This document shows positions 8,349-49,741 of a DNA stretch of 60,144 bases, one piece after another (the first letter of the stretch is position 1; every line of letters begins with the position of its first letter). Source of the DNA: a virus. A program made the position numbers and the translations under genes. Where the stretch lies: the IMG/VR virus record IMGVR_UViG_3300025632_000016, positions 1-60,144 of that record; one strand, given 5' to 3'. The notes under the pieces are model-generated. The model worked only from the letters and a program-made list of their open reading frames with translations, had not been told where the DNA came from and ran no database searches.

Positions 8349-9944
8349 ATGGCATTAGAAAGAAAACCACAGAATTTAAGGGGCTACGGATTAGCGCAAG
8401 ACCCTAAGGTAGAGTTAGATACAACGTTTATAGATGACCAAAATAGGCGTGCGTACCAACAAAGGGGTATAGAAGCGCAACAAGAGGCTCAACAAAAGAA
8501 CTTTGCTCAAAGGGATAAAGAAACTAGGGTAGACTTATTAAAGGGTATTCCTACCATAGAATCAAATTGGTCGCCAGAAATAAAGAACAAGATAAATACC
8601 GAAATAGATGCTTTTATAAAAGGAGCGGGAGATTTATCTACTGAGGAAATTGTAGTGGGGCTAAACGGATTAAAATCAAAGGCTGGGGCATATAAGAGCA
8701 TAGGAACTGCATTAAAAGATAGGGCAACTAAAGTAGCGGCTGGAGATATATATTCTGGCTTGGATGGTGATAAATTATTAGGGTTAAAGCTTGAAGAAGA
8801 TTTTAAGAATCTGACTTTTGAAGAAGCAATGGCTAAAGCTATGAATATAACTCAAAGTCAATTTGCGCCAATGCCTGATATGACCCAATGGGAAACCTTA
8901 AAGAATAATGTTTACGATTTTGCTAAATCATCATCTACGGGAGAAATGGAGTATGCTGGTAATCTAGGGGACAAGTCCTATGGTAGATTTGCATTTAATG
9001 TAGACCCTAATGCAAAGATAGCAGCCGTAAGTAACTTTATGACGGGTAATAGAGGTTTTTATAATTTATACGCTGAAAAAAATGATTTAGAATATGATGA
9101 AATAGAATCAACATTATCATCTCAAATAGATGATGTTGTTTTTGATAAGTGGGCTGAGAATACTCCAAAAGCTGATAAAGAATTTAAACCAACGTATAGT
9201 CGAGGCGGTGGCTCTAGCTTAGAATATAATTATGGGGTATCAGAAGGTACTAGAAAAGAGGAGGGGCGTGTTCCTCAGGGTCTTGGATTTCCAAATGTAG
9301 ATATTAATATGAATTATGTAGATATTATTCCCAAAGATGGCAAGACCTTACCGCTATCTAAAATAAAAGGTAAGAATGGGGAGGTAGTTACAGGGGTAAT
9401 AGTTTCAGTAACAGAAGGAAGTGATGGAGATTTAAAACTAGTGGTAAATAAAAAACTTTCTAGCTATGAGCAAACTCTTGACCTATACAATCAAGCAAAA
9501 GAATTATTAAAAGCCAATACTAAGGAATTAAATAATTTTAATGAATTAAATGATGAAGAAAAATTAGCTAAGGTAGAGAAGTTGGTTTTAAGCGGAAAAA
9601 TAAAGCCAAAAACAGAAACCACAGAGTTACTTGACTATGAGTCAAATAAAAACTTAGTAGCCCCCAATAGGAAAGAAATTTATAAAATGCTAGGTGATGT
9701 AAGGGCTTACGAAAATCCAGAGCAAATAAAAGAAGATGGATTTACTTACTTCGCTAAACAAGATGGAAGCGACCCAATAGGTATAGACGAACTACATAAA
9801 ACTTTCTTGAACGAGAAAAGGAAAGGTGACACTTTTGGTGAGTATATAAAGGGATTTGATTATATTCCACAAGAAGGTGATATGCCTAATGTAGGTGGAG
9901 CTAAGGTGGTAGAAGATTTTTCAGAATTTGAAGTTAAAGGATAA
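8349..9944 (+). CDS. Internal virion protein
   Basis: 531 residues, mostly helical and charged (RDKETRVDLLKGIPTIESNW; repeated Lys/Glu helices at 380-430). No recognisable enzyme domain. It is placed between a likely ejection protein and the 2517-residue giant, with a one-base overlap (TAATG) to the latter, so it is probably co-packaged with them. Function otherwise unknown. Confidence 0.7.
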   Translation: MALERKPQNLRGYGLAQDPKVELDTTFIDDQNRRAYQQRGIEAQQEAQQKNFAQRDKETRVDLLKGIPTIESNWSPEIKNKINTEIDAFIKGAGDLSTEEIVVGLNGLKSKAGAYKSIGTALKDRATKVAAGDIYSGLDGDKLLGLKLEEDFKNLTFEEAMAKAMNITQSQFAPMPDMTQWETLKNNVYDFAKSSSTGEMEYAGNLGDKSYGRFAFNVDPNAKIAAVSNFMTGNRGFYNLYAEKNDLEYDEIESTLSSQIDDVVFDKWAENTPKADKEFKPTYSRGGGSSLEYNYGVSEGTRKEEGRVPQGLGFPNVDINMNYVDIIPKDGKTLPLSKIKGKNGEVVTGVIVSVTEGSDGDLKLVVNKKLSSYEQTLDLYNQAKELLKANTKELNNFNELNDEEKLAKVEKLVLSGKIKPKTETTELLDYESNKNLVAPNRKEIYKMLGDVRAYENPEQIKEDGFTYFAKQDGSDPIGIDELHKTFLNEKRKGDTFGEYIKGFDYIPQEGDMPNVGGAKVVEDFSEFEVKG

Positions 9945-12900
9945 TGGATAAAAAATATTACATAGCAGGTGGAAAGAAATACGCTATTCCAAATGAGAAA
10001 TCGGAAGCTTTTATATCTAAATTTCCAGACGCACAAGAGGCAAAGTATTACGACAATGTAGAGGGAAAGAAATATTATATACCATTAGATAAGGTAGAAT
10101 CTTTTGAATCTAAATTTAATATAGCGCAAAGCACCGATGGGGGTGGTGCTATGGGAAAGCCCGAAGGCTCACAAGAGCCATTAGAGCAGTCGGAAGGTAC
10201 TACTACAACATCTTCATCGGAAACGCAATCACCTACTTCAGAACAGAGTGGAGAAGGGATTGATTTAGATTACTTTTTATCGCAAGCACCTAAAGCTACG
10301 GAAACTGATTCTGGTCAAGAACAGCCTAGAGAAACGTATGACCCCGAATACATAGCCGAAGAAGAGGCTAAGTTATCAGAAGAATTTAACCGTGTAAAGC
10401 AATTGGAAAAAGAAGTTGCTAAAAATACGGGGGGATATGAAACTGACATATCTGCTTTAAGGGACTCTGTTGATATGGAAATAAAATCCGTATCTGACAG
10501 TATAAGTTCAGAATTTGATATTATCAACAAGCAAGTTTCGGATTCTGTTTTAGCTGAATTAGATGTAAGAAAAGCCCAATTACAAGAGCAGATAAATTCT
10601 GGGAATATATCGGTAGAAGATGCTAATAAAATACTATCCGAAGAATCTGATAAATATAAAGTAGAGGCTAAAAAAAGTATAGACAGCAAGAAGCCAGAAC
10701 TAGCCGCTGCATTAAACAAGCGGGTAAGTGAAATTAATAATGCGTATCAATCATCATTAAATGAACTTCAAGATAAGCGGAATATATATAATAAGCAAAA
10801 GCAAGAAAAAGAAATAGAAGAAATGTCTCCTTGGGAGAATATAGGTAGGGCTTTTCAAAACGAATGGACTAAGACTAAGATGATTCCAGCCCAATCCATT
10901 CAAGTGGCATCTCAGTTAACACCAGAGGGCAATGAAAAAGAAACTAGAGTTATTATAGATGCTAATGGAATTAGATTAGTGGAGCAAACTCCAGCAGAAG
11001 GTCAAATATATAACAGAAATCAATTAGAGGAATTAAGAAAAGAAATAGAGCCAACAAAGCAAATAATTAAATCTATAAAGGATGGTGATTATTCTGGGGC
11101 TGCATCAGCAGTAGTTGGTAGTACTGTTAATTTCGCTGGCTCAATGGTCAGGGCATTAGCTAGTAGAGGGGCATCTATGGGCGCAGAAATGGGAGAGCCT
11201 ATGTGGGAGAGCGCTGTAAAGGCTGAGGCTGAGAAAACGGGTAAGACACCAGAGGAGGTGATAACAGAAGATTTAGAAGATGAACTTACAGCAATGAGTT
11301 TAGGTGCTGTTTCTGTTCTATCTGAGCGATTCGGAGTTAAGGCGTTTAAGAACGTAATGCAAAAAAACGTATTCAAAAAAGCTGTTAAGGATGAGATAAA
11401 TAAAAAAGCGCCTAGCCTATTGTCTGCATCTTTAAAAGAAACGGGTACTGAGTTATTTCAAGGTGGGATAGAAAAGGGTAATGAAGAAATTCTAAAAGGC
11501 GATGATGGGCTATATTCTCTTGAGGGTGGTAGTATTTTATATAATGAAATGAAAAACTTCATTGCCTCTGAAGAAGGTGCGGAAACGGCTATATCTACAT
11601 TCTTAGGCTCAATGATGTTATCTGGCGGAAGCAAGGGTGCTATGGCTGTTTATAACAACATAAATAAGAATCCTAAAGACATTACAGCGCCATCTATTGA
11701 TGAGATACTAAAAGACAGAGATAATGCAGCCGCATCATTTAATGAACTTTATGAGTCTGGTAAGCTATCAGAAGATGATTATAACTCATCATTAAATTTA
11801 ATAACAACTGTATCTGAATATGATAGTAAGCTATCGAAGGACAATACAAATAGAGCAGAGTCTATTAAATTAATGATGGAAAGAGACTCTAAGGCAGAGG
11901 AATTATCTCAATTAGATGAAACACAACAAGCTGGCGTAAAAAAAGAAATAGAGGATATTAACTTAGAGCTTGAAAAATTATCCGCTCAAAAAGAGGAAAC
12001 AAATGGAAAAGAAACAACTGAGCAACCCACAGCAGATATGCAAGAGGGTAAACGAGATAGTGAAGAAGTACAGCAAGAAGTAGAATCTCAAAAAGCTGAT
12101 ATAGGAAGAAGAAGACAAGAAGAGTTAAACTCTCCATTACAAAGCACAAGTTCACAAAAAGATGGTGCTAAAGGAAAAACTGTTGCTTCTCAATATGAAG
12201 ATGAATTTATATCAGTAGTAGCGTTTGAAGATGCTAATGGAACACCTTCAACAGTTATATCTATAAATCAAGGGGATAAAGACTCAACAAAAAAGGTAGT
12301 AGAACGAAAAACATTTGAAACATTAGACGAGGCTAAAGAATATGGTAACAACTATATAAAGCAAAGAAGCAGGATTTATGATAACCATATAGAAAAAACC
12401 AACGCTAGATATGATGCTGAATTAGCTGAGTTAAAATCTAATCAAGCGAGTGAAGAAGTACAGCAAGAAGACAGCGAAGCTAAGACTGAGAAAGCTCCTG
12501 CTGCTGAAACCGCTATACCTGAAGGTAAGAAAAAAGCTGAGGCTTATACCACTGAAGAGGTTGTTGAGATTGGAGACGACAGAATAGAGGAGTTCGTTGC
12601 TTCACAGGCTGAGGCTAAGGCTCAAAGGAGTGATGATGCACTTCAGGATACACCACTAACCGTAGAGGGTGTTAGGAAAATAAAGGCTGACGGAGGTAAG
12701 CTGTTCATGACTTCTGATGGAAAATCAGGGGGGTATGTTACCAAAGACGGATACATGGGTGGTCTATTCAAGCAGCCAAAATCTGGAAGAAGAGGTGCAG
12801 CAAAAGTATTGCAGGAAGCAAGAATAAAAGCAGGAGGTAAGTTCTTCGAAGCCTTTGGTATAAACCAAGAAACTGGAGAAGGAACTACGTTGGAGCAGAT

Positions 12901-15900
12901 ATATATTGAAAATGGTTTCAGACCTGTTGCTCGTATGACATTCAACCCAGAGATAGCTCCAGAAGGATGGGATGGAACTAACCTAAAAAGTAGACCAGAC
13001 AACGTGTTCTTTGTATACGACCCTAACGGTCAGTACGAGGCAGGAGATGGTGCTAGAATAGAAGACTACAATCAAGCATACGAATTAGCTAAAAATCAAG
13101 CAAATGAAACAAAAACAAAACCAAGTGCAGGGAACAGACTCTTCAATGAGCCCCTCAAGGCAGTTAAGGAAATTGCTGATAGATATTACGAAAGAGTTTT
13201 CGGTAAACCGAGGAAAGAGTTCCAAGGAACAAGAGAGCTCGATGTAGAGAGAGCTAAGAGACTCAGTGATGCCTTTGAAGCGATGAAGAACGACCCTAAC
13301 AACCCTGAGGTTAGAAAGGCTTACGAAGCATTAGCTAAAGAGACTATTGAGCAGTATAAAGACTTTGTTGATGCAGGATACGTTGTTGAGATAAACAACG
13401 AAGAGCCTTATGCTAACGCTCAAGAAATGATTGATGACCTTAGAAAAAATAAGAAAATCAAGATATTCTCAACAGAAAGTGGTTTTGGAGATAATGCCAT
13501 AACTGAGGAGCAGAGAGCAGAGAACCCATTATTAGCAAGAACTCAGTTCGTAGATGTTAATGGAGTGCCAATGCTTGTGAATGACTTATTCAGAGCTATA
13601 CATGACTTTTACGGTCACGCAGAGTTAGGTAACGGGTTTGGAGCTATTGGGGAGGAAAATGCTTGGAATTTACACGCAAGAATGTTTTCTCCACTAGCAA
13701 GAAGAGCCATGACTACTGAGACTAGGGGGCAGAACTCATGGGTAAACTTCTCTGGTGCTAACGACAAGATAAAAGCTCTAAGGCAAGAAGCTAGAAGGTT
13801 AAGAGAGGAAGGAGCTCCGAAAGAGCAGGTTCAAAAGATAGTTGATGAAATCTACGAGATAGGTTCTTTTGCTGACCAGAAGATAGGCTTACTTCCAGAA
13901 GAGTTTTCTGATATATCAGAGTCACTTGAAAAGCAAGATGCGTTAAAGAAGAAGCCGAGAGTGAGAATAAGGACAGCAAAAATTAAATTAAAGCCAGAGC
14001 AAAAAATAAATTACAAAGTAGGTGATGATATTTTAAGTGGTAAGGTTGTCGAGGATTTGGGTAACGAGGTGAGTGTTGAGACTCCTAGCGGAGATACAGT
14101 AGTGATTGATAAAAAAGACTTATCTAATCCACCTAAGCCTAAAAGAAAAAGAATAAGAACTGTACAGGATGAGACTGAAGGGCTTACTCAAAAAGAACAA
14201 ACAAAACAAGCCGTAGAAGAGTTATCAGATGCTTTTATTAGAGAGAAAAAGGCTGCTGTAAAAAAGATAAGAACATCTCTTCAAGAGAAAGCTAAACGTA
14301 TATTCGAGCTAAATAAAAAGAAAAAAGACAATAGAAAGTTATTAAAAGACTTTTCTAGGGATTTACTTGATAAAATGAATAAGTCTGGTATAAAGTCTGC
14401 TAGAATAAAGGAAGTTAAAACTATAATTAATCAAATAGGAAAGGACGTTTCTAGTGATAAACAACTTCAAGAGTCAGTAGGAAGAATAATAAACGCCATA
14501 CAAGACCTAAATGACTTAAAGAAAATAGAGGATTATAATAAAAAACTGTCCGATGCTAATAGTAAATCAAAGAGCATTAAAAGGAAATCTAAGTCAAAGA
14601 CTCAAATAGCTACGTTAAAAAATATAGCTAAACGATTTTCTTTGATAAACCCAAAGGATGTATCTAATATAGATGAATATCTAGAGTTTGCGGGAGAATT
14701 GAATAATGCGCTGTCAGCGCCAATAGTGAAGATGGATGGAGTTGAAACTAAGTCTCCAATAAATAAAGATAAAATTAACAACTACATAGAAGAGGCGCTT
14801 TCTGAAAATGAATCTTCAAGTAAAGCGAAACTGTTAGATAACTTCTCTGATTACGCTGATATGGGCGCTATTGACGGGTCAATGACATCTAAGGAGATAA
14901 AAGAAGTTATTGACGCTATAGAGGGCGGTAAGGATGTCCCTAGTAAAAACATAGAGGCATTTAGGCAGGTTGCTAGTAGATATTTATCCGCACAACAAAA
15001 GGCTCTTAAAGAGGTAATAAAGGAAGCCCCTCAAAACGTAAAGTCAAGATTAAGGGATTTATCTAACGCTAGGCTAGACTTATTAGACTACAAGGATATG
15101 GTTATGGCTATTAGAACTATTAACAACGCTATAGAAAATCTTGATATAGATAATGTTGATTTAATAACAGCAAGAGCTACGGCTAAAGAGAACGCTATAT
15201 CATTCGCAAAAGGAAGACCTAAAATAAGTGAGATTTCTTTTGGTAAAAGCCTAATGATTGGAGATACACTAAAGAGTTTTTCAAAAACATTAGCTAGACT
15301 ATATTTAAAAGGAGTAGGCTCTACAACATTAATAGCTGAAGGTATATTTGGATTTGAGGGTTTGGTTAAATTTATAGATAAATCTAGGTTTTTTGATGTA
15401 CTAAAAGGATATAAGGATTCTCAAAAATACTCCAAAAAAATATTTGATAAATACAATAATAAATTTAAAAATGTAAAAGATTTCTTTAGTAAGGATAATG
15501 TTTACGAAAGAGGAATAGTAGCATATCTAGGAAGGTTTAAGGATGATTCTGTAGCTGAATTTGAAAGAAGGAAAAAGCTATTAACAGAAACATTGTCAGA
15601 CCTAGAGAAGAGTGACTTCGAGAAGTATGAATCGTACCTAAGTGTTTACAATAAAGTAGTTAGAGATTCTAAGAATTTTGATGAAGTAAAGAGTAAGGCG
15701 GAAAAAAATAACGTTGATGCTGTTAATTTTTGGGTAGATGAGTTCTCTAAGCATTTCGATAGTATGAGTGATGTATCTATGGCTGTGTATAACACAATGC
15801 TAGATAAGGAGAATAATTATCTTCCAGACACCTATAAAAGAATAAAAGGTGTTGAGTCAAAAAATAAAGACCCAAAGCAAGTAGGCTCATCGTTTCTAGG

Positions 15901-17497
15901 TTCTTTTGATAATATAGATAAGTCGAAAAGCGGAAGGTTTAACGAGGTAGTGTCTCCAAAGACATTGGCTAAAAGAAGGTATGTAGATTTATCTTTTGAG
16001 GAAAATATGGTTAAATCTTTAGAGTCGATATTAACGGATATTAATACAGCAAAAGACATCCAATATTTATCAGAGTTTATAGATAGCGATGCTATTAGAG
16101 ACTTATTTAAGTCAACCGATGATTACAAATTTTTAAGAGGTAGAGTAATAAGCCTTATTGATAATATAAAACAAAACTCTATCCCAATGGATGAGGATTC
16201 AATGCAAGCATCAAAGTTAGTGAATAGAATAGGTAAAACATCTACAGGATTAGCTCTAGTAGGACTAGGTCAACCAATAAAGCAATTCGTACCAGTAATG
16301 CTTAACACGGTAATTAATCTAGTAGGAAAAGGGTTTACATTGCCAGACTTTAAGGTAAGAGAGGGTCAGAAGAAAATACTAGGAGAGTCTATAACATCAT
16401 TTAGAGGGCTAGAATCAACAGCAAACATTGATAATCAAGTAAACAAGTATTTAGACGGAAGACCAAATCTTTTAAATAAAGCCCTAGATAAGTCACTAAA
16501 AATGGCTATAGAAAATCCTGATAAAGCAGCGGCAGGAATATCTTGGGTGTCATACTACACGAAGAGATTGAAGTCGCAAGGCAAAGAAGTTCAGTTTGAT
16601 AAATTAGATAGGGAAGCTTCAATATATGCTGACTTGCAAGTATCTCGTCAACAAAACGTTCCTACTAAGGAATTAATGGGTGAGTTATTCACTAGCAAGC
16701 AACTATCTACAAGAATAGTTAAATCTATATTCTTCCCGTTTTCTGGTTTTGCGTTCAATATAAAAACAAGAATATGGACTGATGTAAAGGCGCTAAAGTC
16801 AAAGAACTCTACTAAGCCAGAGAAGCAAATGGCTGCTAAATCTTTGGTAGGAGCTACTACGGAATTAGTTGCGTATAGGATACTGCAAGGAGCTATAACA
16901 TATATGATAGGGTATATGGTTAATGTAATGCTTTTAGGTGAGGATGAAGAAGAGTTTAAGGAGAAACAAGCTAAAACATTCAAGAGAAGTCTGCTTAATA
17001 ACGGAATAAACGATGTATTGTCACCAGCACCACCATTAGACAAGGCTGTTGCATACACATTTAACAAGAAAATACTTGAGCCTACATACGAAAAAATGAA
17101 TGTAGAAGAGAAAGATAGGATATACGCTTATGATAAAAGCTATGGTAACGACTTAGGATTATTAGGTATCCCCTATGAGAAGGGTCAGAAATTCTATAAG
17201 ATGTTAGATATGGCGGCAGATATAGATGACGTTCCTCTTTTTGACGCAAAGCAATACTTTACCGATAAGGATATAGAAAAGAGAATATCTGAAAACGATA
17301 AAGCCGTAATGCAAGTGGTAGCTCCTATATATGGTTTATATTTAATGGGCTTAATGCCAAGAGAAGTTGGCTCTGCTGCTGAAAAAGCTATGCAGACAAT
17401 AGAAAGGAGAAGTAAAACAGATAAAAGCGGAAGCGAATCATCTAGCTTCTTGAAATTACCAACCCTAAAGACACCTAAAGTGCCTAAACTTAAATAA
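9944..17497 (+). CDS. 2517-residue polyvalent internal virion protein
   Basis: Features seen in order: residues 3-60, two copies of a K-YY-GKKY-IP-F-SKF unit; 60-330, acidic low-complexity and coiled coil; 370-600, helical with Gly/Ala membrane-like stretches; about 906-1026, a possible GNAT-like segment (LEQIYIENGF, then VARM); about 1045-1330, a helical lead-in and H1220-DFYG-H1225, GEENAW, H1244, TTE1259TRGQNSW, a candidate metal centre; 1400-2250, long basic helical regions; about 2305-2332, a membrane-like helix; then a Lys/Ser tail. Giant multi-domain proteins injected with phage DNA are described as polyvalent proteins, and the C-terminal part resembles such large-polyvalent-protein-associated domains. 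Codon choice between about 12480 and 13980 differs from the flanks, suggesting an acquired block. Confidence 0.85.
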   Translation: MDKKYYIAGGKKYAIPNEKSEAFISKFPDAQEAKYYDNVEGKKYYIPLDKVESFESKFNIAQSTDGGGAMGKPEGSQEPLEQSEGTTTTSSSETQSPTSEQSGEGIDLDYFLSQAPKATETDSGQEQPRETYDPEYIAEEEAKLSEEFNRVKQLEKEVAKNTGGYETDISALRDSVDMEIKSVSDSISSEFDIINKQVSDSVLAELDVRKAQLQEQINSGNISVEDANKILSEESDKYKVEAKKSIDSKKPELAAALNKRVSEINNAYQSSLNELQDKRNIYNKQKQEKEIEEMSPWENIGRAFQNEWTKTKMIPAQSIQVASQLTPEGNEKETRVIIDANGIRLVEQTPAEGQIYNRNQLEELRKEIEPTKQIIKSIKDGDYSGAASAVVGSTVNFAGSMVRALASRGASMGAEMGEPMWESAVKAEAEKTGKTPEEVITEDLEDELTAMSLGAVSVLSERFGVKAFKNVMQKNVFKKAVKDEINKKAPSLLSASLKETGTELFQGGIEKGNEEILKGDDGLYSLEGGSILYNEMKNFIASEEGAETAISTFLGSMMLSGGSKGAMAVYNNINKNPKDITAPSIDEILKDRDNAAASFNELYESGKLSEDDYNSSLNLITTVSEYDSKLSKDNTNRAESIKLMMERDSKAEELSQLDETQQAGVKKEIEDINLELEKLSAQKEETNGKETTEQPTADMQEGKRDSEEVQQEVESQKADIGRRRQEELNSPLQSTSSQKDGAKGKTVASQYEDEFISVVAFEDANGTPSTVISINQGDKDSTKKVVERKTFETLDEAKEYGNNYIKQRSRIYDNHIEKTNARYDAELAELKSNQASEEVQQEDSEAKTEKAPAAETAIPEGKKKAEAYTTEEVVEIGDDRIEEFVASQAEAKAQRSDDALQDTPLTVEGVRKIKADGGKLFMTSDGKSGGYVTKDGYMGGLFKQPKSGRRGAAKVLQEARIKAGGKFFEAFGINQETGEGTTLEQIYIENGFRPVARMTFNPEIAPEGWDGTNLKSRPDNVFFVYDPNGQYEAGDGARIEDYNQAYELAKNQANETKTKPSAGNRLFNEPLKAVKEIADRYYERVFGKPRKEFQGTRELDVERAKRLSDAFEAMKNDPNNPEVRKAYEALAKETIEQYKDFVDAGYVVEINNEEPYANAQEMIDDLRKNKKIKIFSTESGFGDNAITEEQRAENPLLARTQFVDVNGVPMLVNDLFRAIHDFYGHAELGNGFGAIGEENAWNLHARMFSPLARRAMTTETRGQNSWVNFSGANDKIKALRQEARRLREEGAPKEQVQKIVDEIYEIGSFADQKIGLLPEEFSDISESLEKQDALKKKPRVRIRTAKIKLKPEQKINYKVGDDILSGKVVEDLGNEVSVETPSGDTVVIDKKDLSNPPKPKRKRIRTVQDETEGLTQKEQTKQAVEELSDAFIREKKAAVKKIRTSLQEKAKRIFELNKKKKDNRKLLKDFSRDLLDKMNKSGIKSARIKEVKTIINQIGKDVSSDKQLQESVGRIINAIQDLNDLKKIEDYNKKLSDANSKSKSIKRKSKSKTQIATLKNIAKRFSLINPKDVSNIDEYLEFAGELNNALSAPIVKMDGVETKSPINKDKINNYIEEALSENESSSKAKLLDNFSDYADMGAIDGSMTSKEIKEVIDAIEGGKDVPSKNIEAFRQVASRYLSAQQKALKEVIKEAPQNVKSRLRDLSNARLDLLDYKDMVMAIRTINNAIENLDIDNVDLITARATAKENAISFAKGRPKISEISFGKSLMIGDTLKSFSKTLARLYLKGVGSTTLIAEGIFGFEGLVKFIDKSRFFDVLKGYKDSQKYSKKIFDKYNNKFKNVKDFFSKDNVYERGIVAYLGRFKDDSVAEFERRKKLLTETLSDLEKSDFEKYESYLSVYNKVVRDSKNFDEVKSKAEKNNVDAVNFWVDEFSKHFDSMSDVSMAVYNTMLDKENNYLPDTYKRIKGVESKNKDPKQVGSSFLGSFDNIDKSKSGRFNEVVSPKTLAKRRYVDLSFEENMVKSLESILTDINTAKDIQYLSEFIDSDAIRDLFKSTDDYKFLRGRVISLIDNIKQNSIPMDEDSMQASKLVNRIGKTSTGLALVGLGQPIKQFVPVMLNTVINLVGKGFTLPDFKVREGQKKILGESITSFRGLESTANIDNQVNKYLDGRPNLLNKALDKSLKMAIENPDKAAAGISWVSYYTKRLKSQGKEVQFDKLDREASIYADLQVSRQQNVPTKELMGELFTSKQLSTRIVKSIFFPFSGFAFNIKTRIWTDVKALKSKNSTKPEKQMAAKSLVGATTELVAYRILQGAITYMIGYMVNVMLLGEDEEEFKEKQAKTFKRSLLNNGINDVLSPAPPLDKAVAYTFNKKILEPTYEKMNVEEKDRIYAYDKSYGNDLGLLGIPYEKGQKFYKMLDMAADIDDVPLFDAKQYFTDKDIEKRISENDKAVMQVVAPIYGLYLMGLMPREVGSAAEKAMQTIERRSKTDKSGSESSSFLKLPTLKTPKVPKLK

Positions 17498-48633: not shown

Positions 48634-48915
48634 ATGACAGACAAGAAAGAGCGAGAAGCTAATATGGCTTATCAGCAATTAGCGCAAGGCGCACAGCAAG
48701 AATTTCAAGCAGAATTACAAAAAGCATCAGCATTAGAGGGTTCCTATAGATTTGCATTAGACTTAGCTGTTCGAGCAGGAGTAACAGAACCTAACGAATT
48801 ACTAGAGTTCGCAGATATAATTGTAGCTAAGACGGATTCATTTTCTGCTGTAAATTTTCACGCACCAGAACCAACGGTAAAACCACCTAGCAATCTTATA
48901 TTGCCAAATGCTTAA
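48634..48915 (+). CDS. Unknown helical protein
   Basis: 93 residues, Gln/Ala/Glu-rich helices in the first 70 (MAYQQLAQGAQQEFQAEL), Pro-rich tail. Overlaps the GroES-like gene by eight bases. Unknown. Confidence 0.65.
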   Translation: MTDKKEREANMAYQQLAQGAQQEFQAELQKASALEGSYRFALDLAVRAGVTEPNELLEFADIIVAKTDSFSAVNFHAPEPTVKPPSNLILPNA

Positions 48916-49741
48916 AGGAGGCATTTTAAACTACATCGCTGTAAAAGTAGACGATGATAAAGCCAATCTATTGAATGGGCTTATAATTGACTCTAATTGG
49001 GGTCACGAGGGTAAGCATATGACACACGATGGCATTGTCGTAGAAAACTCCACAAAGTTAGATGTAGAACTTAACGGTAAGATTTGGTTTGACCATAGAA
49101 TGTGTTGGCTAGATGACAGAAAGTTTTCTAGCGAAGATTGGAATGGTACAACTGAAAAAGGTATATTCTATTATCTTTTACGAGATTCAGAATACGTTCA
49201 GTATGTAAGAGCGATAAATGAAGTGCCTACGAATGGTTTTGTAGGCATTAAGAAGCTGCCAAAGAAAGAAACCACTGACAGCGGTATATATATTCCGCAA
49301 ACCGTAGAGCAGCCTAATGATAGGGGTGTAATCGTAATTGATTGCTACGACTTAAAGAAAGGTGATATTATAATCTACGCAGAGGATAACGACTATCCAT
49401 CAGACCAATTTGAAGGCGAGTGGATGCAAGTAGATGGAAAGGATGTTATATTCACGCATTCTAGCTATATTTTCGCTGTAATCAATGGGGATGAATTAAT
49501 TCCTTTTGGTGATTGGATTATAATGGAGGCTATGGATGATGACGAAGAATGGGTGGACTTTAACGGCATTTATTTACCTAGAAAAGAAAAGGTAACAAAA
49601 GGCTTAGGTAAGGTAGTGTATTCAAACTCATATAAGAAAGACACGCAGCTTATTTATATGAAGCGAGGGTATAACTCATTTGAGTTTAATGGTAATAAGT
49701 ATTACGCTGTAAAAGAAGATAACGTACTAGCAGAATTATGA
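48908..49741 (+). CDS. Tandem GroES-like protein (two clear, possibly three repeats)
   Basis: 277 residues. The last 80 match the GroES/Cpn10 plan: GDWIIMEAMDDDEEW, FNGIYLPRKEKVTKGLGKVV, KRGYNSFEFNGNKYYAVKEDNVLAEL. Residues about 105-195 repeat it: GFVGIKKLPKKETTDSGIYI, DRGVIVIDCYDLKKGDIIIY, YIFAVINGDEL. The first 100 give a weaker third copy (YIAVKVDDDKANLLNGLIID, DGIVVEN). Phage co-chaperonins such as gp31 help fold the major capsid protein; three in one chain is unusual. It sits in the packaging operon, coupled to the next gene by ATGA. Confidence 0.65.
   Translation: MLKGGILNYIAVKVDDDKANLLNGLIIDSNWGHEGKHMTHDGIVVENSTKLDVELNGKIWFDHRMCWLDDRKFSSEDWNGTTEKGIFYYLLRDSEYVQYVRAINEVPTNGFVGIKKLPKKETTDSGIYIPQTVEQPNDRGVIVIDCYDLKKGDIIIYAEDNDYPSDQFEGEWMQVDGKDVIFTHSSYIFAVINGDELIPFGDWIIMEAMDDDEEWVDFNGIYLPRKEKVTKGLGKVVYSNSYKKDTQLIYMKRGYNSFEFNGNKYYAVKEDNVLAEL

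Follow-up and report, generated by a model that had tools for sequence, protein, structure and literature searches.

Within a giant open reading frame (ORF) of the window, the whole 60,144-nucleotide stretch of viral DNA analyzed here, a short array of histidine and glutamate residues raises the question of whether part of the encoded protein is a metal-dependent enzyme and, if so, of what kind. The original prediction placed a possible iron center like that of the aromatic amino acid hydroxylases (AAAHs) at positions 13040–13930, in a protein delivered with the phage DNA. Our analysis indicates that this region is probably a phage metal-dependent enzyme that holds one metal through H1220, H1225 and a carboxylate, for which E1259 is a likelier candidate than E1237.

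A discrete and mobile module in a giant phage protein

Translation of the 2517-residue ORF at 9944–17497 places every predicted element where it had been claimed: H1220-DFYG-H1225, GEENAW (residues 1236–1241), H1244 and TTETRGQ, which begins at residue 1257, so that its glutamate is E1259. The second histidine lies at +5 from the first, and the glutamate at +34 from the second and +39 from the first. The predicted span also fits, with the module proper at approximately 13124–13930 (Table 1).

Table 1 Features of the giant ORF and its conserved module
Feature	Residues	Positions	Strand	Basis or conservation
Giant ORF, host of the domain	2517 aa	9944..17497	+	Relatives carry the annotation 'large polyvalent protein'
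Conserved module	~1061–1329	13124..13930	+	Profile-hit borders, BLAST coverage, confident model of 13118–13930
Core matching compact stand-alone proteins	~1122–1272	13307..13759	+	Alignments; compact model pLDDT 96.9
Invariant P-Y, precedes first core helix	1155–1156	13406..13411	+	Y 100%, P 98% (n = 123)
N-D-x-F-R, start of HDxxGH helix	1213–1217	13580..13594	+	F, R 100%; N, D 98% (n = 123)
H-D-F-Y-G-H, predicted metal ligands H1220 and H1225	1220–1225	13601..13618	+	Both His 100%, D 99%, G 98% (n = 123)
G-E-E-N-A-W-x-x-H, second helix	1236–1244	13649..13675	+	G1236, H1244 100%; E1237 99% (n = 123)
T-T-E-T-R-G-Q-N, third helix; E1259 predicted carboxylate ligand	1257–1264	13712..13735	+	E1259, Q1263 99% (n = 123)
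Q-K, conserved C-terminal element	1312–1313	13877..13882	+	Q 92%, K 90% (n = 123)

Along the giant protein, BLAST coverage by 189 relatives is 0 to ~9 upstream of residue 1040 (~9 at residues 1001–1040), rises to 81–189 over residues 1041–1200 and 160–189 over residues 1081–1320, and then drops to 41 at residues 1321–1360 and ~20 further downstream. This sharp rise and fall marks a discrete module and, judged by sequence comparison, a mobile domain (residues ~1060–1325) within otherwise unrelated giant proteins. In protein searches, cyanophages as well as phages of Mycobacterium, Gordonia, Rhodococcus and Streptomyces proved to carry the domain; it is also present in several hundred contigs of IMG/VR and on four plasmids from actinobacteria, and one viral scan gave a lower bound of more than 570 loci. 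Complete short ORFs of 188–300 residues carry the domain alone, among them one of 188 residues in Streptomyces phage Dagobah and many of 190–300 residues in metagenomic phages; the domain protein of mycobacteriophage Sebata, gp107, has 433 residues. The long insert that separates the second strand from the HDxxGH helix is missing from the compact forms, which define the core. Accession AM265638, consulted for a hit in Pseudomonas phage LKA1, belongs to phage LKD16 and was left out of the analysis. Scanning cellular genome contigs with two patterns recovered no relative, a result that does not imply absence from cells because both patterns were narrow.

No Pfam or NCBIfam model covers the domain. 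The profile of PHROG 3170, a family of annotated unknown function that includes Sebata gp107 and is by sequence the same domain, matches the window at E 1.1e-16 and stand-alone relatives at E 4.3e-26 to 0. A literature search for PHROG 3170 or for DUF7178, a family encountered near the domain (see below), found no paper.

Upstream of the domain, positions 12636–13040 (residues ~898–1030, 'GGLF...GGKFFEAFG...LEQIYIENGFRPVARMTFNPE') read like a GNAT-type acetyltransferase; a PDB sequence search with this stretch returned nothing usable.

Invariant residues across the family

Clustering of relatives at 70% identity left 123 sequences. In this set, R1217, H1220, H1225, H1244, Y1156, F1216, G1236 and A1255 are 100% conserved, D1221, E1237, E1259 and Q1263 are ~99% conserved, and the only invariant histidines are 1220, 1225 and 1244. 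Because these positions are invariant or nearly so across 123 relatives less than 70% identical, the motif residues exceed chance, and their conservation is the strongest sequence-level evidence for this conclusion. The expectation of enzyme-like invariant residues in an autonomous domain is thus borne out by the conservation, the coverage borders and the stand-alone copies.

H1244, which the original prediction mentioned only in passing, is as invariant as H1220 and H1225. Plasmid versions of the domain (L178 and L179) read HDAIAH or HDAFAH, with glycine changed to alanine ahead of the second histidine, and keep all three histidines and the glutamate. An HD-domain phosphohydrolase, whose H...HD...D pattern includes a conserved histidine on an upstream helix, was rejected because no conserved histidine lies upstream of H1220 in the 123 relatives.

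Predicted fold

AlphaFold2 models both the window domain (13118–13930, with 62 relatives; pLDDT 92.6) and a compact homolog from contig L193 (pLDDT 96.9) with high confidence. The compact model runs helix, helix, strand, helix, strand and then three helices, with HDxxGH (H104 and H109) on helix 94–112, GE...H (E121 and H128) on helix 118–129 and the glutamate (E143) on helix 134–154. As the motifs occupy three predicted helices that follow one another in sequence, their residues do not lie in scattered disordered regions. From the order and lengths of these helices, convergence of the motif residues in space is plausible.

PDB searches with a single sequence and with a profile each returned only chance helical designs. 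Foldseek comparison of the window model with the PDB gave nothing below E 1.2, with AAAHs absent among the matches listed, and neither the window model nor the compact model had a PDB fold match at E < 0.5.

Comparison with aromatic amino acid hydroxylases and zincins

The domain could be a very divergent but true member of the pterin-dependent AAAH superfamily, reduced to its catalytic core, which would account for HDxFGH followed by a distal glutamate and for a similar order of structural elements. In hhalign, the family scores 27.7 against 13 hydroxylases (P 0.004), above all 201 column-shuffled decoys (mean 13.7, maximum 22.8) and 23 real phage families (maximum 24.2), whereas the M78 and M48 protease profiles score as background. 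Masking the six motif columns, however, lowers the score from 27.7 to 12.4 (background, 15.2 ± 3.1), so that the sequence evidence for an AAAH amounts to one motif; in an earlier hhalign comparison with few sequences, the signal likewise came from the motif only. No PF00351 match was found by hmmscan at E ≤ 1 or in the window record. The PF00351 profile comparison proposed at the outset thus did not support the prediction, with no hmmscan hit and an hhalign signal confined to the six motif columns.

Structural comparison is similarly divided. For the compact model, AAAHs occupy Foldseek ranks 1, 2, 3, 4, 9, 28, 42 and 48 of 350,542 chains, and these ranks gain some weight because AAAHs had been named beforehand. 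Nevertheless, the rows count as a single event because the AAAHs are homologous to each other, the shared motif contributes to the ranks because Foldseek also scores amino acids, and the matches at ranks 1–4 (E 0.59–1.7, TM ~0.2, rmsd 12–16 Å) give no superposition. A second structure aligner, VIA, found no AAAH at Z ≥ 2 with the compact model. In Legionella phenylalanine hydroxylase (lpPAH), whose ligands His122, His127 and Glu167 are spaced +5, +40 and +45, the phenylalanine-pocket residues beside the ligands are Pro118, Trp163 and Phe168 (PMC3821034). Taking the register from H122 and E167, these correspond to F1216, A1255 and T1260, and the pocket residues are therefore replaced. A pterin-4a-carbinolamine dehydratase gene was present in 0 of 42 carrier contigs. 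Hence, the hydroxylase-like part of the original prediction stands as far as HDxxGH, the distal glutamate and the leading Foldseek ranks are concerned, but it falters on the PF00351 result, the masked profile score, the TM values and the replaced pocket. We regard true membership in the AAAH superfamily as quite unlikely. The resemblance is a good lead rather than proof of membership in the family, and convergence on the motif appears as possible as remote homology.

A zincin-like metallopeptidase variant, in which HDxxGH replaces HExxH and which might, for example, process giant polyvalent proteins, is unlikely. In VIA, zincins alone reach Z ≥ 2 (IrrE, 2.5–2.7; selecase, 2.1), and the M48-type peptidases BepA and 3c37 are among the Foldseek rows. 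These Z values are at noise level, however, the M78 and M48 profiles show no similarity to the family, the base glutamate of HExxH is aspartate in 99% of relatives, the histidine spacing is +5, and only two strands precede the active helix in the compact form. We retain this alternative because polyvalent proteins are known to carry zincin domains, one clade of which has an HEXXXH motif (PMC5512222).

Gene neighborhood

Among 144 neighbors at 48 loci, those most common beside stand-alone copies encode portal, terminase large subunit, head morphogenesis, scaffold and protease proteins. In the window, the giant ORF comes after a tail-fiber gene, and the phage has terminase, portal, primase/helicase and exonuclease genes. 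This context fits a late-made, possibly packaged protein, and injection of the giant protein with the DNA is plausible. The proximity of stand-alone genes to portal, terminase and scaffold genes, together with annotation of Rhodococcus phage E3 gp205 as a structural protein, could instead point to a capsid protein, structural or DNA-binding, whose histidines and glutamate maintain a hydrogen-bond network or a structural zinc and have no part in catalysis. An invariant charged and polar set on an otherwise variable surface is, by contrast, typical of an active site, and the domain moves readily between unrelated giant proteins and plasmids; a purely structural role is decidedly unlikely.

Several associations were observed alongside. 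DUF7178 (PF23802; L189:2506-5082, L019:954-2756 and L193:5071-5712) forms a fusion with the domain in gp205 of Rhodococcus phage E3, lies next to it in Sebata, is encoded by the neighboring gene in Skog, a Gordonia phage, and occurs close by in L193; within the carrier contigs, to which the count is confined, it occurs in 12 of 42, in some cases in giant ORFs. On the Microbacterium plasmid pYJNG (L178:7332-11188), DUF3846, a protein of the Mom family and an anti-restriction-type protein (ArdC/M78) come after the domain protein. A link to Mom DNA-modification proteins was dropped, as these appear in 2 of 50 carrier records and none is listed at the other plasmids examined. Stand-alone copies often have an N-terminal tail ahead of the domain, 'DPSEARNNHGEFGTT' / 'DPNEARDYHGRWTAGSG' or 'HGSVHTTGGRVLP' (L121, L126, L172; L019, L189, L190), which is possibly a packaging or assembly tag. 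Elsewhere in the window, a 277-residue ORF directly upstream of the terminase region (48908–49741) matches the co-chaperonin GroES (PHROG 3188) over its residues 107–192.

Discussion

The claim of a metal-dependent enzymatic domain has gained a discrete domain, enzyme-like invariant residues and a confident model, from which we infer metal binding and activity. We propose that the domain folds as a small α/β unit comprising a long helix, a strand, a helix, a strand and three helices. One metal ion would be bound by H1220 and H1225, both on the HDxxGH helix, and by a carboxylate, for which E1259 on the third helix is the best candidate; D1221, E1237, H1244, R1217, Y1156 and Q1263 would line the pocket. 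The third ligand could instead be E1237, and H1244 could also be a ligand. H1244, D1221, R1217 and Q1263 may serve catalysis or substrate binding, and the domain, as an enzyme, would have a substrate belonging either to the phage or to the cell it infects. Both forms, the one borne by a virion-type giant protein and the one encoded within the head cassette, may reach the cell together with the DNA.

As to the chemistry, our guess is that Fe(II)-dependent hydroxylation or oxidation is slightly likelier than zinc hydrolysis, because the 2-His-1-carboxylate motif is hydroxylase-like. More specifically, and tentatively, the domain might represent a new family of phage non-heme iron enzymes of the 2-His-1-Glu type that has a fold of its own, or else a minimal, ancestral-like version of the AAAH core. 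Such an enzyme would be delivered along with the DNA or produced together with the head genes, and would oxidize a host or phage molecule.

The domain is common and nearly invariant at enzyme-like positions, and it has no assigned function or close PDB fold. The stand-alone versions of 180–210 residues make metal content, structure and activity directly testable. An iron oxygenase would add a new type of chemistry to the phage effectors; a zincin variant would represent a new clade of polyvalent-protein protease.

The domain can be set beside three known systems. Like the AAAHs, it has H-[D/E]-x-x-G-H (here H 100%, D 99%, G 98% and H 100% of 123 sequences) followed by a glutamate on a later helix, and its elements, judged from sequence, come in a similar order (strand, helix, strand, His-helix, helix, Glu-helix). 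The AAAH glutamate, however, lies 40–41 residues past the second histidine, whereas the 99%-conserved E1259 lies at +34, and the domain has an extra invariant histidine and arginine. With the zincins, including IrrE/M78, M48 and the polyvalent-protein metallopeptidases, it shares two histidines on one helix, a glutamate on a later one and the weak VIA rows, but it differs in having HDxxGH rather than HExxH, a histidine spacing of +5 and no catalytic glutamate within the motif. Finally, polyvalent proteins are built from shuffled domains, LPD1–LPD40, some of which are predicted enzymes (PMC5512222). No Pfam model matched the present stretch, a comparison that covers those of the 40 LPDs with a Pfam model of their own; like the LPDs, the module is shuffled among giant phage proteins.
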